From: Gemmatimonadales bacterium
Lineage (GTDB): Bacteria; Gemmatimonadota; Gemmatimonadetes; Gemmatimonadales; GWC2-71-9
NCBI GenBank assembly: GCA_013820855.1
Contig: JACDHV010000004.1
Coordinates: 1 to 40,854 of the forward strand
Direction: 5' to 3'
DNA length: 40,854 bases
The notes under the pieces are model-generated. The model did no database searches. It was not told the origin of the DNA and saw nothing but the letters and a program-made list of their open reading frames with translations. Made by a program: the position numbers and the translations under genes. How positions within the stretch are numbered: position 1 is the stretch's first letter; every line of letters starts with the position of its first letter. Shown in pieces: positions 8,421 to 26,785 of the stretch.

Positions 8421-9649
8421 TCACGCGCGGGCCCGACCCAGCGTAAAGGAGAACGTGGCGCCCTGCCCCACCAGGCCTTCGGCCCAGACCCGCCCCCCGA
8501 GGCGGTGGATGATCCGCTGCACCGTGGCGAGGCCGATGCCCGTGCCGGGGAACTCGCTCGCCAGATGCAGCCGCTGAAACGGCCCGAAGAGGCGGTCCGC
8601 GTAGGCCATGTCGAAGCCAGCCCCGTTGTCTCTCACGTAGTAGGTAGGGTCACCGCCGACCACGGCCATCCCGAATTCGATGCGGGTGGCGGGGACCCGG
8701 GCGGTGAACTTCCAGGCGTTCTCCAGCAGGTTCGTGAGCGCGACGCGGAGCAGCCGCCCGTCACCCACCGCCGTGACGCCGGGCCGCACCCGAGCCTCGA
8801 CCACGCGCGCGGGCTCGCTCTCGCGCAGCCGGTCCAGGATGGCGGTGGCCAGCGCGCTCAGGTCCACGTCCTGCTGGCGCAGCTCGGCCCGGCTCACCTT
8901 CGACAGGTGGAGGACGTCGTCGATCAGCTGCAGCATCAGCCGGCTCGCCTCCTGAATGCGATCCACGAACCGCCGCCCGTCGGCATCCATGCGCTCTCCC
9001 TGGCTCTCGAGCAGCGCCCGGCCGAAGGCCTCGATCCGCCGGAGCGGCGCCCGCAGGTCGTGGGAGACGGCGTAGCTGAAGCTCTCCAGCTCCTTGTTCT
9101 TGTGCTCGAGGTCCCGGACCAGCTCGGCGCGAGTCTCCGCCAGCTCGCGGGCCGCCTGCTCGCCCTCGCGAAGCTGCTCCGCCTGCCGCCGCAGCAGCTC
9201 GCTCTTCTTCGCCAGCTCGACGAAGACCGAGACCTTCGACCGGACGAACTCCGGCACCACCGGCTTGACCAGGTAGTCCACCGCCCCGACCGCGTAGCCC
9301 CGGACGGCCTCGGTATGGGTCTTGTCCGCGGCCGTCAGGAAGATGATCGGCGTGTCGCGGCTCTTGTCGCGGTCCCGGATCAGCGCCGCGGTCTCGAAGC
9401 CGTCCATGTCGGGCATCTTCACGTCCAGCAGGATCACGGCGAAGTCGTCGGTGAGCAGCCGCTTCAACGCCTCCCGGCCGGACTCCGCCCTGACGAGGTT
9501 CTGGTCCAGTCCCTGGAGCATGGCCTCGAGCGCCAGCAGGTTTGCGGGCTGGTCGTCCACCAGCAGGACGTTGACCCGCTCCGGCGGCGCCTCGCCGTCA
9601 GGGCCAAGGCGGGCCCCGCCGCGGGGCAGTGGAAGGTCCACCGGGCCGG

Positions 9650-9665
<16 letters not shown>
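8421..9665 (-). CDS. Response-regulator/histidine-kinase fusion (REC-HisKA-HATPase)
   Basis: A 414-residue protein. The N-terminal receiver domain (about residues 30-150) has [14 protein letters not shown], phospho-acceptor Asp in [14 protein letters not shown] and VDYLVKPV with the conserved Lys. A coiled coil ([17 protein letters not shown] onward) leads to HisKA with [18 protein letters not shown], then the ATPase domain with N box [18 protein letters not shown] and [10 protein letters not shown]. No membrane helix is present, so it is cytoplasmic and receives phosphate or signals from another protein. The ATG at 9665 overlaps the end of the poly-HAMP kinase gene by 16 bases, making that kinase the obvious partner. 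An upstream in-frame extension is rejected because it runs deep into the kinase gene. Confidence 0.88.
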
Positions 9666-15502
<5,837 letters not shown>

Positions 15503-15628
15503 GGGGGCTCCGGAAGTTCGGGACTGCTGGTACGGGTGGATAACCTGCAACAGTGGGTGGGCCGGGCGCCCGGCCTCCGTGACCACGGTCACATGCCTCT
15601 GGCAGGGCAGGTGCCGCCGGGCTACTGC

Positions 15629-15650
15629 TTGACTTCGAATATATTGGTGG
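15629..15650. promoter_or_regulatory. AT-rich divergent promoter candidate
   Basis: In a very GC-rich background, TTGACTTCGAATATATTGG stands out between the poly-HAMP kinase and the divergent PAS hybrid kinase. AATATATT is self-complementary and offers a TATATT -10-like hexamer on both strands, suggesting that the two kinase arms share a promoter region. No good -35 pairs at 17 bases on either strand, so the call is tentative. Confidence 0.33.
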
Positions 15651-15661
15651 CACACTACGGC

Positions 15662-18058
15662 GTGCTACCAACCGGACATACTCAGGTGCGGGAGGCGCCG
15701 CTGGGCGCCTCCGACGGGGCCGGCCCGCGTGCCGAAGCCGAACGCCTCCGTATCCTCATCCTCGAGGATGTCCCGATGGATGCGGAGCTCGTGGAGTACG
15801 AGCTCCAGCGGGCTCGAATTCCCTTCGTCGCCCGCCGGGTGGACACCCGCGAATCCTTCCTCCGCGAGCTCGTCGAGTTCGCCCCCGACCTGATTCTCTC
15901 GGACTACACGCTTCCCCGCTTCGACGGCATGACCGCGCTCGCGCTCGCACGGCAGGTCGCACCAGCGGTGCCGTTCCTGATCGTCACCGGCTCGGTGAAC
16001 GAGGAGACCGCGGTGGGCTGCATGAAGGCGGGCGCCGCCGACTATCTGCTCAAGAGCAACCTCGCGCGGATCGGCCCCGCGATCGAGGGGGCGCTGGCGC
16101 GGATCCGCGCGCGGGAGGAGAAGGCCAGAGCGCAGGAGGCGCTCCGTCGCTCCGAGGCGAACCTGCGCGCCATCTTCAACAACAGCCTCCAGGCGTTCGT
16201 CCTGATCGACCCCGACGGCACCATCCAGGCGCTCAACCCCACCGCGGTCGAGTGGAGCACCCGGCTGCTGGCCCGCCCGCTCCAGGAGGGCGCGCAGGTG
16301 GCCGACTTCGTCCCCGAGGCGGCGGAAGCGTTCCGGGCGGCACTGTCCGGCGAGGCGCGCAACGTCGAGCGCCACCTCCAGGATGTGGACGGCGCCGAGC
16401 TCTGGTTCGAGACCACCCATGCGCCGGTGGTGGACGACGAAGGATCGGTCATCGGGGTCTGCCTGAACGCCCGCGACATCAGCACGCGGAAACAGGCCGA
16501 GCGGGCGCTGCGGGAGAGCGAGGAGCGCTACCGCGACCTCTTCGACAACGCGAGCGACCTGGTCTGTGCCACCGATCCCGAGGGGCGCTTCCACTACGTG
16601 AACAGCGCCTGGCATCACGCGATCGGACTGTCGGATGTAGAGCTGTCGCGCCGCGGGTTCCTCGACGTGGTCCACCCCGACAGCCGGGCCCGCTACCGGG
16701 AGGTGGTGCAGCAGGCCCTCGCGGGCGAGACGCTCACCCGCGTGGAGCTGGTCCTGGTCACCAGCACCGACGCGACGATCACGGTGGAGGGGAATCTCAG
16801 CTGCACCTTCCGGAACGGCGGACCGCTGATCCTGCGGGGAATCTACCGCGATGTCACCGAGCGGAAGCGGGTCGAGGACCAGCTCCGGCGCGCGGAGCGG
16901 ATGCAGGCGGCCGGCCGCCTCGCCGGCGGCATGGCGCACGAGGTCAACAACATGATGACCGGGGTGATCGGCTTCAGCGAGTTTCTGCTGCGCAGCTTCG
17001 CGGAGGAGGACCCCCGCCGGGGCGAGGTCGAGGAGATCATGCGCGCGGGCACCCGGGCGTCCGACGTGACCCGGCAGCTTCTGGCGTTCACCCGCCAGCA
17101 GCTGCTCCATCCCGAGGTGCTCGACGTCAACGGCGTGGTGGGCGGACTCGAGAAGATGCTGCGCCGCTCCCTCGGCGAGGATCACGTGCTCGAGCTCGCG
17201 CTCTCCGCGGACGCGGGGGAGATCCGCGCCGACCGCGGACAGCTCGAGCAGGTGCTCATCAACCTCATCCTGAACGCGCGCGACGCCATGCGCCCGCACG
17301 GCCGGGTCACGGTCGCCACCGGCCGCGCCATGCTCGACGAGGTCTATGCCCAGTCCCACGCCGGCATCGGGATTCCCCCCGGCGAGTACGTGCTCCTCTC
17401 GGTCTCCGACACGGGGATCGGGATGGCGCGGGAGACCCAGGCCCGCATCTTCGAGCCGTTCTTCACCACCAAGCCGGTCGGCCAGGGCACGGGACTCGGA
17501 CTGTCCACCGTGTACGGCATCGTGAAGCAGAGCGACGGCTTCGTCTGGTGCTACACCGAGCCGGGGCACGGGAGCACCTTCAAGATCTATCTGCCCCGGT
17601 CGCTCGACGGGGCCGCGCCGGTCGTGCCTGCCGGCCCGGCGGGCGAGCTCCGCGGCGGCACGGAGACCATTCTCGTCGTCGAGGACGAAGACGTGGTCCG
17701 GGCGCTCGCGTGCCGCGGGCTGCGAGAGCGGGGCTATACCGTGCTCGAGGCGCGGCACGGCCGCGAGGCGCTGGACCGACTGGCGGAGTGCCGCCACCCC
17801 ATCGGCCTCGTCATCTCCGACGTGGTGATGCCAGAGCTGGGTGGCCGCGAGCTGGGATCGCAACTGGCGGTGCTCCAGCCGGAGCTGCCGATCCTGTTCA
17901 TGTCGGGGTATACGGGAGAGGACGTGATCCAGCGGGGGCTGCTCGACCCGGGGGTACCCTACCAGCAGAAGCCGTTTACGCCCGAAGGACTGGCGCGCAA
18001 GGTCCGCGAGATGCTCGACGGCAGACCCGCGCCCGGCCGCCGCGCCGAGCCCGCCTAG
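15662..18058 (+). CDS. Hybrid histidine kinase REC-PAS-PAS-HisKA-HATPase-REC
   Basis: About 798 residues. An N-terminal receiver ([20 protein letters not shown]; Asp in [19 protein letters not shown]) is followed by two PAS domains ([21 protein letters not shown] and [19 protein letters not shown]), each ending in a PAC-like RDI/RDVTERK. HisKA has [19 protein letters not shown], the ATPase has [10 protein letters not shown] and [13 protein letters not shown], and a C-terminal receiver has [13 protein letters not shown] and [10 protein letters not shown]. No membrane helix, so cytoplasmic. Start uncertain: GTG 15662 or GTG 15686, neither with a clear ribosome site. The 2809-residue track ORF is this gene preceded by antisense of the poly-HAMP gene. 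Confidence 0.9.
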
Positions 18059-18527: not shown

Positions 18528-19586
18528 ATGCCGACAAGTCATCCCGCGCAGCCGGTCGTGGCCGGCTCCGCCAAGTGCCTCGTCGTGGACGACGAGCCCG
18601 GAGTCCGGGGATTCCTCATCCGGATGCTTCAGACCCAGGGCTTCCAGTGCTTCGAGGCGAGTTCCGGCCAGGAGGCGCTCCGGGTCCTCGAACGCATCGG
18701 CGAGCCCCCGCTCATCGTGACCGACATGCGGATGCCGGAGATGGACGGCATCAGCTTCCTCGAGGTCGTCCGGGTCCGCTATCCCGACACCTCGGTGATC
18801 ATGTTGAGCGGCGTGAGCGAGACGACCACCGCGGTGGACTGCCTCCATCGCGGTGCCGCGGATTTCCTGCTGAAGCCGGTGTCGATGAGCGAGCTGCAGG
18901 CCCGGGTCAGCCGCGCCCTGGAAAAGCGGGCCCTGGTGCTCCAGAACCGGGGCTACCAGGAGACGCTGGAGCGGCAGGTACACGAGCAGGCGGTGCGGAT
19001 CCAGGAGCTGTTCCTCCAGGGTGTACAGATGCTGGCCCGGGCGCTCGAGGCCAAGGACGCCTACACCCGCGGACACTCGATCCGGGTGAGCCAGTACGCC
19101 GTGGCCACCGCGTCGCGCCTGGGGTTCTCGGGTGTGTCGCTGGACGGGATCAGGCTGGGCGGGGAGCTGCACGACATCGGCAAGATCGGCACTCGTGAGG
19201 CCGTGCTGCACAAGCCCGGCACGCTCACAGAGGAGGAATTCAGGCAGATCACCGAGCACCCGCTGCTCGGGGAGCGCATGCTGTCGCCGCTGGCGCAGGA
19301 GTCGCCGGACGTCCTCCGCATCGTGCGCTCGCACCACGAGCGGCTCGACGGCCGGGGATTTCCCGACGGGCTGCGCGGGGAAAAAATCCCGATCGAGGCC
19401 CGGATCGTGGCGGTGGCCGACGCATTCGACGCCATGACCACGCGGCGGCCCTATCGTGAGTCTCGGCCCCCGACGGACGCCCTGACGGAGCTTCGTCGGG
19501 TCGCGGGCTCCCAGCTCGATCCCGATGCGGTCGAGGCTTTCGTCGAGGTGTATCCGATCCCGCAGCCCGCCGAGGTCTGCGTGTAG
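18528..19586 (+). CDS. HD-GYP response regulator, RpfG-like c-di-GMP phosphodiesterase
   Basis: A 352-residue protein. The receiver domain (residues 15-135) has KCLVVDDEPGVRGF, Asp in LIVTDMRMPEMDG and FLLKPVSM. A helical linker (LQNRGYQETLERQVHEQAVRIQEL) leads to the HD-GYP domain with KDAYTRGHSIRVSQYA, the metal-binding GELHDIGKIG, EHPLLGERML, HHERLDGRGFPDGL and VADAFDAMTT. The GYP tripeptide is GFP here, a known conservative variant. It likely hydrolyses cyclic di-GMP when phosphorylated. No dedicated kinase follows, so input may come from the neighbouring hybrid kinases. Its stop lies five bases before the end of the convergent DUF58 gene. Confidence 0.88.
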   Translation: MPTSHPAQPVVAGSAKCLVVDDEPGVRGFLIRMLQTQGFQCFEASSGQEALRVLERIGEPPLIVTDMRMPEMDGISFLEVVRVRYPDTSVIMLSGVSETTTAVDCLHRGAADFLLKPVSMSELQARVSRALEKRALVLQNRGYQETLERQVHEQAVRIQELFLQGVQMLARALEAKDAYTRGHSIRVSQYAVATASRLGFSGVSLDGIRLGGELHDIGKIGTREAVLHKPGTLTEEEFRQITEHPLLGERMLSPLAQESPDVLRIVRSHHERLDGRGFPDGLRGEKIPIEARIVAVADAFDAMTTRRPYRESRPPTDALTELRRVAGSQLDPDAVEAFVEVYPIPQPAEVCV

Positions 19587-24575: not shown

Positions 24576-26330
24576 ATGACCAAGCGGCGCATGTCGCTCC
24601 CCGACTACCGGCAGCGACTTCAGGTCGAGACCCCGGAGCACGTGATGCTCGACCTCGAGATCGCGGGGGTCGGCTCGCGCGCGCTGGCGGCGCTCATCGA
24701 CCTGCTCGTCCTGGTGGGCTCGGCGCTCGGGGTGTTCATCCTGCTCGTCGTCTTCGCGGGTTTCGGCGTCACCATCGGCTCGATCGGCGGTGCGCTCCTG
24801 CTGCTGCTCGGCTTCGCGGTCTGGACGGGATACTTCATCCTGTTCGAAGGGCTGTGGCGCGGGCAGACCCCCGGCAAGCGGCTGGTCGGTATTCGGGTGG
24901 TCAGCGATACGGGCAACGCGGTGAGCCTAGGCGCGGCCACGGCGCGCAATCTCCTGCGCGTCGCCGATTTCCTGCCCCCGCCCTACCTGATCGGCACCCT
25001 GCTGGTGGCCCTGCACCCCAGGGGCAAGCGGCTGGGCGACATGGTGGCGGGGACCGTGGTCGCGCGCGACCGGCCTTCCGAGCTGGTCGTATCCTCCCGG
25101 GCCCCGAGCCGGCCGGCACAGCCGCTCTCGCTGATTCCCGAGCTCACCGACGCGGAGTTCCGACTGCTGGCTCGATTCGAGACCCGGCAGGCGCAGCTCA
25201 CCCAGCCGGCCCGGGTCCGGCTCGCGGCCTCGATCGCGAGACAGCTGGCCGACCACCCGACCCCCGCGGGCGTCGGCGCCCTGGAGCACCTCCTGGAGCT
25301 GCACCGCCGGGAGCGCGAGCGGCGTGAGGGGACCGTCGCCTGGGGCGGCTCGGCGGCGGCCGCATCCTTCGCCGACCGGAAGCGGCCCCGCTGGGCCGAG
25401 TTCCAGCACCTTGCCGAGCGGGCGGCCCGCCACGGCCTCGACAGCTTCGCGTCCCACGAGCTGCCCGAATTCGCCGCCCGATACCGGGAGGTGGCCGCGG
25501 ATCTGGCACGGGCGCGCACCTACGGGGTGGACGAGGCCACCCTCAACCACCTCGAGCGCCTGGCGGCGGCCGGGCACAACGCCCTCTACCGGGACGAGCG
25601 AGGCACCTGGCGCCGGGTCTGGGAGGTGCTGGCCCGGGAGTGCCCCGCGGCCATCCGGCAGGCCCGCGGCTATATCGCCCTCGCATGTCTCGCCTTCGTG
25701 CTGCCCGCCGGAGCCGGCTACCTGCTTATGCGGGAGCAGCCGGCGCTGGCCATCGACCTCCTTCCGGAGGTCATCATCGAGCGCGCGGATGCCGGTGCCG
25801 AACGGATGGCGGCGGGCGGGCGGTACGTCGATGTCTCCCTCAGCGACCGCCCGCTCGTGGCGTCGAGCCTCATCACCAACAACGTCCGGGTGGCGATCGC
25901 CTGCTTCGCCGGGGGCATCTTTCTCGGAGTCGGCTCACTCGTGCTGCTGGGATTCAACGGCCTCATGATCGGCGCCACGGCCGGCCACTTCGCCAACCTG
26001 GGCTTGCTCCGCTACCTGCTCGAGTTCATTCTGGGGCACGGCCTGCTGGAGCTGTTCGCCATCTGGGTGGCGGGGGCGGCGGGGTTCCTGCTGGGGCGCT
26101 CGGTGGTGGCGCCGGGCGAGCTGAGCCGGAGCGACGCCCTCGTCCTGAGCGGGCGGACCGCGGTCCGCATGGTCGGGGGCGCGGCGGTCCTGCTGGTGGT
26201 GGCGGGGCTCATCGAGGGGTTCGTGTCCGCCGGGGGCGGCGACGTGACGTTCCGCGCCACCGCAAGCGTCGGGAGCCTGGCCTTCCTGGCGGCTTACCTG
26301 GCGAACGGCGGCGTCCGGGCGGCTCCCTGA
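24576..26330 (+). CDS. RDD-SpoIIM fusion membrane protein
   Basis: A 584-residue protein in two parts. Residues 1-165 are an RDD domain: ETPEHVMLDLEIAGVGSRALAALIDLLVLVG (with the R/D of RDD), three membrane helices, and the classic GQTPGKRLVGIRVVSD and HPRGKRLGDMVAGTVV. A helical linker follows. From about residue 260 it is a SpoIIM (stage II sporulation M / DUF95) protein: RPRWAEFQHLAERAA, AARYREVAADLARARTYG, HNALYRD, then membrane helices with NNVRVAIACFAGGIFLGVGS and ILGHGLLELFAIWVAGAAGF. In many bacteria these are two adjacent genes in MoxR clusters; here no stop separates them. It likely forms a membrane channel or scaffold with the DUF proteins encoded divergently. Confidence 0.88.
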   Translation: MTKRRMSLPDYRQRLQVETPEHVMLDLEIAGVGSRALAALIDLLVLVGSALGVFILLVVFAGFGVTIGSIGGALLLLLGFAVWTGYFILFEGLWRGQTPGKRLVGIRVVSDTGNAVSLGAATARNLLRVADFLPPPYLIGTLLVALHPRGKRLGDMVAGTVVARDRPSELVVSSRAPSRPAQPLSLIPELTDAEFRLLARFETRQAQLTQPARVRLAASIARQLADHPTPAGVGALEHLLELHRRERERREGTVAWGGSAAAASFADRKRPRWAEFQHLAERAARHGLDSFASHELPEFAARYREVAADLARARTYGVDEATLNHLERLAAAGHNALYRDERGTWRRVWEVLARECPAAIRQARGYIALACLAFVLPAGAGYLLMREQPALAIDLLPEVIIERADAGAERMAAGGRYVDVSLSDRPLVASSLITNNVRVAIACFAGGIFLGVGSLVLLGFNGLMIGATAGHFANLGLLRYLLEFILGHGLLELFAIWVAGAAGFLLGRSVVAPGELSRSDALVLSGRTAVRMVGGAAVLLVVAGLIEGFVSAGGGDVTFRATASVGSLAFLAAYLANGGVRAAP

Positions 26331-26335
26331 GCCGC

Positions 26336-26518
26336 TCAGATGTCCCGGAGCACAGCCCGCATCCGGATGGCCAGTGCCTCGATCTCCCGGAGACTGGTCA
26401 AGGTCTCCGGATCGAACTGCGACTCGTTGAGCAACAGGAGCTGGATCTCGGCCAGGAGCGCCGACAGGGGATTGGAAAGATCGTGACGGAGCTTGCCCAG
26501 ACGGTCTGGTTCGGTCAT
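26336..26518 (-). CDS. Stand-alone histidine-kinase dimerisation (DHp) domain protein (60 aa)
   Basis: The 60-residue ORF contains KLRHDLSNPLSALLAEIQLL followed by a second helix (SLREIEALAIRMRAVLRDI). H-D-L-S-N-P-L-S matches the phosphorylatable H box of HisKA domains, and the two-helix length is that of a full DHp hairpin. There is no ATPase, sensor or receiver domain and no room for one before the SpoIIM gene end 5 bases away. A GGAG nine bases before the ATG supports translation. It could act as a phosphotransfer shuttle, a dominant-negative dimerisation partner of kinases, or be a remnant; the last is less likely given the clean ORF and ribosome site. Confidence 0.68.
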   Translation of the reverse strand: MTEPDRLGKLRHDLSNPLSALLAEIQLLLLNESQFDPETLTSLREIEALAIRMRAVLRDI

Positions 26519-26592
26519 GTCCGCTCCGACTCGGATTCACCTGCGGGGGTGAGCCAAAATCGTGCGTCTTCGAGACTTCTGCAAGCGGGCTC

Positions 26593-26621
26593 TTGACTGG
26601 GCCCCGGGACCGATCTAAGTT
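26593..26621 (+). promoter_or_regulatory. Probable rho promoter
   Basis: TTGACT, 17 bases, TAAGTT: a good -35 and a fair -10 at ideal spacing, pointing towards rho and predicting a leader of about 160 bases. Long leaders are known in rho genes for autoregulation by premature termination. The leader is relatively C-rich and G-poor in places (CCGTCACAACCCGTACCGCC, then ATATACCCCAGGCCAACCTC), as expected for a rut-like region. Inference from sequence only. Confidence 0.45.
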
Positions 26622-26785
26622 GAATCGCTTCTTGGATTCGGCCGGACCACTCCCCGTCACAACCCGTACCGCCGTTCCGCCATCGGGCCGACATATACCC
26701 CAGGCCAACCTCGCCGGCATCTCTCGATTCCTTCGTCCATCACCCGCCCGACGCCGGCAGGGCTCGTCCGTTTGGAGTTTCGTCC

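Follow-up and report, generated by a model that had tools for sequence, protein, structure and literature searches.

HisKA proteins that lack a HATPase domain have been described. They made up 3.66% of the HisKA proteins in SMART in a 2013 count, 711 of them have HE/DxxN/T, and the HisKA and HATPase parts of EnvZ keep activity as two separate polypeptides (PMC3591291). The isolated DHp domain of HK853 is a phosphatase, its activity is diminished by H260A, and the E/DxxT/N motif includes its H+4 residue, T264 (PMC5727384). In the autophosphorylation of histidine kinases, the acid at H+1 is the general base (PMC7005713). In this study, we analysed a gene for a DHp protein of 60 residues in a stretch of 40,854 nucleotides from a Gemmatimonadales bacterium, which is referred to as the window. 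An earlier note on this DNA had called such a protein rare; this stands in part, qualified by the SMART share given above.

The DHp gene and its predicted product

The open reading frame lies on the minus strand, with its ATG at 26518 and its stop at 26336, and encodes MTEPDRLGKLRHDLSNPLSALLAEIQLLLLNESQFDPETLTSLREIEALAIRMRAVLRDI. The gene and its surroundings are as follows.

26336 to 26518, minus strand: stand-alone DHp (HisKA) protein, 60 aa (open reading frame, Pfam HisKA, AlphaFold2, conservation, dN/dS)
26524 to 26527, minus strand: Shine-Dalgarno-like GGAG, 5 nt before the DHp ATG (sequence)
26483 to 26485, minus strand: codon of His12 in the H-box, candidate phospho-acceptor, invariant (H in 76/76 distinct family orthologues)
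26471 to 26473, minus strand: codon of Asn16 (H+4), invariant (N in 76/76), the residue of the HisKA phosphatase motif E/DxxT/N (role of H+4 from PMC5727384)
26786 to 28033, plus strand: rho, divergent gene kept next to the DHp gene across the family (Pfam Rho domains, synteny)
24576 to 26330, plus strand: gene for an RDD and SpoIIM membrane protein, convergent neighbour, 5 bp between the stop codons (Pfam, synteny)
26519 to 26785, no strand: intergenic region between the DHp gene and divergent rho, where many relatives carry an M50 protease gene and/or a gene for a partner of about 95 aa (locus comparison)

Translation bore out the frame, coordinates and length that had been reported earlier, and the ribosome site was found as the GGAG upstream of the ATG. 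The H-box motif of the protein is HDLSN. Pfam HisKA (PF00512) matched residues 9-60 with E=2.9e-5 and 24.5 bits, which is just below the curated cut-off of 26.9. The AlphaFold2 model, for which an alignment of orthologues from the protein's own family was the input, is a single-chain hairpin of helices 3-30 and 37-59 with a mean pLDDT of 94.1. Since the DHp alignment matched no PDB sequence at E<=0.01, fold matching was used. The first 16 Foldseek matches of the model in the PDB were all DHp parts of histidine-kinase or receptor structures, and the top match was the RetS-bound GacS DHp in 7n0e (prob 0.99, TM 0.77). The very short query accounts for Foldseek E-values of only about 0.3-1.9. The catalytic HATPase_c (CA) domain is absent: the chain stops 6 residues past R54, with nothing beyond helix 2. 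The HisKA match, the AlphaFold2 hairpin and the Foldseek matches agree with the earlier description of a complete H-box helix pair without a catalytic domain. These results indicate that the window protein is a bare HisKA/DHp helix hairpin without an ATPase domain.

Conservation and neighbourhood in the window's family

With the family profile, strong orthologues (E<1e-19) that stand clearly apart from full kinases were found in 81 of the 102 genomes of the window's family (f1). Matches at this threshold were also obtained in six genomes of another family of the same order (f3). An initial protein search had given matches in 89 of the 102 genomes, some of them with full kinases only. GTDB records with a name were Gemmatimonadota or bacterial MAGs, a search of plasmid records gave no match, and nothing on this DHp-only family turned up in literature searches. 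Alignment A1 was gathered with a regular expression requiring H..NP. Because this biased it toward H..NP, conservation was recounted on an unbiased tblastn set of 76 distinct orthologues. His12, Asn16, Pro17, Glu24, Gln26 and Glu47 were invariant in this set, and Asp13, the acid at H+1, was present in 71/76. The HisKA phosphatase motif E/DxxT/N, defined by an acid at H+1 and T or N at H+4, is present both in the window copy, as HDLSN, and in the family (D in 71/76, N in 76/76). A Pfam scan of 67 aligned orthologues found HisKA in all 67 (best E 6.9e-11) and HPt (PF01627) in none.

The orthologues are mostly 58-77 aa long and end just past helix 2. All 76 distinct orthologues terminate 5-23 residues beyond the R54 position and are too short for a CA domain. 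Homologues of similar length thus exist and are not mere pieces of kinases, contrary to the outcome that would have refuted the earlier note. Kinases of the window genome with a clear H-box extend at least 159 residues past the DHp. Between congeners, dN/dS was 0.02-0.27, with differences mainly at codon position 3. A decaying histidine-kinase remnant or a non-coding ORF would fit the window copy in that its HisKA score falls just under the Pfam cut-off. However, these dN/dS values, the presence in 81/102 genomes and the constant length and C-terminus speak against it, and a kinase remnant has no room because the SpoIIM/RDD gene ends 5 bp away. We consider this explanation extremely improbable, and the readings as chance ORF, kinase fragment or remnant were ruled out by the genome count, the dN/dS and the constant C-terminus. 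The DHp-only gene is real, is under strong purifying selection, and is neither a chance ORF nor a kinase fragment.

The DHp gene is divergent from rho across f1, and the neighbours kept in this family are rho, the M50 protease gene, the gene for the partner of about 95 aa and the SpoIIM/RDD gene. No receiver or kinase gene was a conserved neighbour of the f1 copies. The earlier note had tentatively connected the protein with kinases 8 kb away (the window has kinase domains at 8436-8765, 10991-11359 and 17231-17599); the neighbours conserved in f1 do not support a special link of this kind. The island that it had assumed left no sign, and the DHp gene lies beside housekeeping rho-ruvX-mltG.

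In many f1 relatives, the gene of an M50 site-2 protease (PF02163) lies between the DHp gene and rho. Of 77 distinct loci, 55 have the partner and 22 lack it; in some of the latter, the M50 gene immediately precedes the DHp gene. Where the partner gene is present, its stop codon in most cases overlaps or adjoins the start codon of the DHp gene (mostly -4 to 0 nt), which suggests that the two genes are translationally coupled in most of these relatives. Within the window's genus, the partner is kept in 3 of 10 members and gone in 7. Both the M50 gene and the partner are missing at the window site, and no partner was found in the whole window genome (best E 0.38). The upstream ORF at 26515-26694 (minus strand) was considered as a remnant of the partner and was rejected, as it did not match the partner profile. 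Since the DHp gene persists where the partner, the M50 gene or both are gone, neither is an obligate partner, and the DHp protein has a role independent of both.

The partner itself has invariant R39, D42, R46, W75, HH84-85 and RDLYR in an alignment of 34 sequences (A2; example L058:5701-5982), and its AlphaFold2 model is beta4-alpha2 (pLDDT 79). Searches for its identity gave one sub-threshold PAS hit in Pfam, no PDB sequence match and no confident PDB fold match. We also observed that DHp genes recur beside rho genes in two arrangements, divergent from ordinary rho in f1 and f3 and upstream of a rho paralogue in a further family, f2.

Homologues in other families and two-component genes of the window genome

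Weaker homologues (profile E 1e-7 to 1e-17), mostly also without a CA domain, were found across the class Gemmatimonadetes. The counts for families f2 to f9 derive from hits of a profile built on A1. On the basis of these E-values over 60 residues and the common CA-less layout, the proteins of f2, f4, f5 and f9 are putative orthologues of the window protein. In f2, short or N-terminally extended DHp forms occur at the same locus, which suggests that either the short form lost the extension or the long form gained it. The f2 gene lies upstream of a same-strand rho paralogue in at least 31 of the 35 loci examined; of the remaining loci, two are on short contigs and two have a different, kinase-like protein. 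This rho paralogue directly follows the DHp gene and has a long low-complexity N-terminus (loci L150-L164 and L218-L237). A divergent TPR-like gene lies upstream of the f2 DHp gene, and a same-strand gene for a single-domain receiver precedes most copies by about 1-3.5 kb. In f5, extended forms of about 200 aa are immediately followed by genes for a PilS-like kinase and an NtrC-type regulator (11/11). In f9, forms of about 200 aa are immediately followed by a receiver gene (4/4; REC-HD-GYP by Pfam in the two scanned). Forms of about 70 aa lie before a gcvH gene in f4 (4/4).

The His and the Asn at H+4 are among the most constant features of f1, f2 and f5. In f2, the His was kept in 33/33 homologues and the Asn in 32/33, and the acid at H+1 remained in only 5/33 (lost in 28/33); this acid is kept in f1, f4, f5 and f9. 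Of the four f9 homologues, two have Q or R in place of the His, and Ser occupies H+4 in three. The f9 DHps (L165, L166, L177 and L179) have an N-terminal domain of about 130 aa with marginal receiver similarity (receivers E 0.02-0.3; FleQ 0.015). Another frame of about 490 aa, L183:3842-5323 (plus strand), has apparent PAS repeats followed by a DHp and likewise ends without a catalytic domain.

We then surveyed two-component parts in the window genome. Among its full kinases with an H-box found by profile, 14 of 15 have an acid at H+1. With the family profile, no other DHp of the genome scored above 10.6 bits, and therefore there is no obvious sister kinase with which the DHp protein could pair. 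The genome gave 43 HATPase matches; no cognate CA-only partner was recognised among the shorter HATPase frames, one of which, of 154 aa, may be an RsbW-type anti-sigma factor. No free HPt was found in the genome, where HPt domains were found only within frames of at least 574 aa. Within the window, a 2001-aa frame at 9650-15655 (minus strand) encodes a hybrid histidine kinase with a long HAMP array, GAF, HisKA, HATPase and three receiver domains. The gene of a REC-HD-GYP response regulator, at 18528-19586 (plus strand), lies between the DHp gene and the kinases of the window; f9 DHps also adjoin a REC-HD-GYP gene. The three-receiver hybrid kinase and the lack of a free HPt leave room for a possible phosphorelay role.

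Possible functions and comparison with known systems

Since the HxxxN core is conserved and the isolated HK853 DHp provides a precedent, we favour a function as receiver phosphatase or phosphotransferase. In this reading, to which we give about an even chance, a dimeric DHp module would act in trans on receivers in one or both of these capacities, as in a split kinase. By homology, the protein would form a homodimeric four-helix bundle, and the dimer would dock receiver (REC) domains. As it has no ATPase domain, it cannot make its own phospho-His from ATP. In one option, (a), His12 and Asn16 would remove phosphate from a phospho-Asp receiver. In the other, (b), His12 would take phosphate from a receiver or from the catalytic domain of another kinase and pass it to another receiver, and the protein would make up half of a split kinase or of a phosphorelay. 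The CA-less homologues in two-component operons of other Gemmatimonadota count for phosphate handling. The f2 pattern, in which His and Asn are kept and the H+1 acid, present in most kinases of the window genome, is mostly lost, fits a module that is past the need for autophosphorylation and still handles phosphate. Against this stand the f1 copies without receiver or kinase neighbours and the f9 homologues that lack the His or have Ser at H+4. A further weak point is that the proteins of f2, f4, f5 and f9 are putative orthologues. The invariance of Glu24 and Glu47 is not explained by this function.

Two other functions were weighed. A free DHp could heterodimerise with the DHp of a full kinase, or dock on it, and block that kinase. 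By analogy with RetS-bound GacS, the top Foldseek match, and with the action of the Sda hairpin on KinA, such an inhibitor or modulator is conceivable; the size and hairpin shape are suitable, and the f5 homologues lie directly before a PilS-like kinase. However, a pure inhibitor needs neither an invariant His nor an invariant Asn at H+4, and a sister kinase to act on is not obvious in the window genome, so that we regard this function as quite improbable. The protein could instead be a small DHp-fold dimer that is not phosphorylated and serves as an adaptor binding the partner of about 95 aa, the M50 protease or Rho. The partner gene (present in 55/77 loci and contiguous with the DHp gene in most relatives that have it), the M50 gene upstream in many relatives and the adjoining rho genes in f1, f3 and f2, in different arrangements, are in keeping with an adaptor. 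Functions other than phosphate handling are also suggested by the invariant Glu24, Gln26 and Glu47 and by the two f9 homologues without the His. An adaptor would be hard to reconcile with the invariance of His and Asn, and the DHp gene outlasts the partner (in 7/10 members of the genus), the M50 gene or both, including in the window genome. We therefore consider an adaptor rather unlikely.

Extending the phosphatase or phosphotransferase reading to the class, we tentatively picture the DHp-only family of Gemmatimonadota as free-standing enzymes of this kind, with a window lineage that was pared to 60 residues and was once tied to the coupled partner and the site-2 protease; this wider picture is possible rather than probable. 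It is easy to discard a DHp-only protein as a fragment. A minimal family that is conserved, and whose HxxxN core is fixed while its genomic partners vary, would show the DHp hairpin alone to be a selectable signalling unit. It would also permit a direct test in cells of the receiver phosphatase or phosphotransferase activity of a bare DHp, hitherto seen with laboratory fragments. This work further exposes a new family of coupled proteins of about 95 aa and an unexplained recurrence beside rho genes.

Several known systems resemble the window protein in part. The HPt domain (PF01627) may share with it the role of a phospho-His carrier without ATPase, and is not homologous by the Pfam scan. Sda, the antikinase of KinA, is a small helical hairpin that acts on the KinA DHp and is not a DHp homologue. 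In the RetS/GacS complex (7n0e), a DHp acts on the DHp of another kinase, and the window protein resembles it in fold. The phosphotransferases Spo0B, ChpT and PhyT are of the DHp four-helix-bundle type, which is predicted for the window protein by homology, and have no autokinase activity. Spo0B has HDxxN. These three proteins keep a degenerate CA-like domain (ChpT: PMC3433190), whereas the window protein has none. The isolated HK853 DHp is the same module with the same His and H+4 residue, but is an artificial fragment (PMC5727384), whereas the window protein is the product of a natural gene. Split kinases, namely CheA3/CheA4 of R. sphaeroides, the EnvZ halves and the HATPase-less HisKA proteins (PMC3591291), also have the acceptor apart from the ATPase; the HDxxN motif is present in the window protein. 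They differ in that the CheA3 acceptor is a P1 (HPt-type) domain and the window protein is a DHp. No cognate ATPase-only partner was recognised for the window protein among the short HATPase frames. The HATPase-less HisKA cases are scattered, whereas the window protein belongs to a conserved 60-aa family. Thus, HisKA without HATPase was already known, and the novelty lies in a DHp-only family that is minimal, conserved throughout a clade and associated with a coupled partner.
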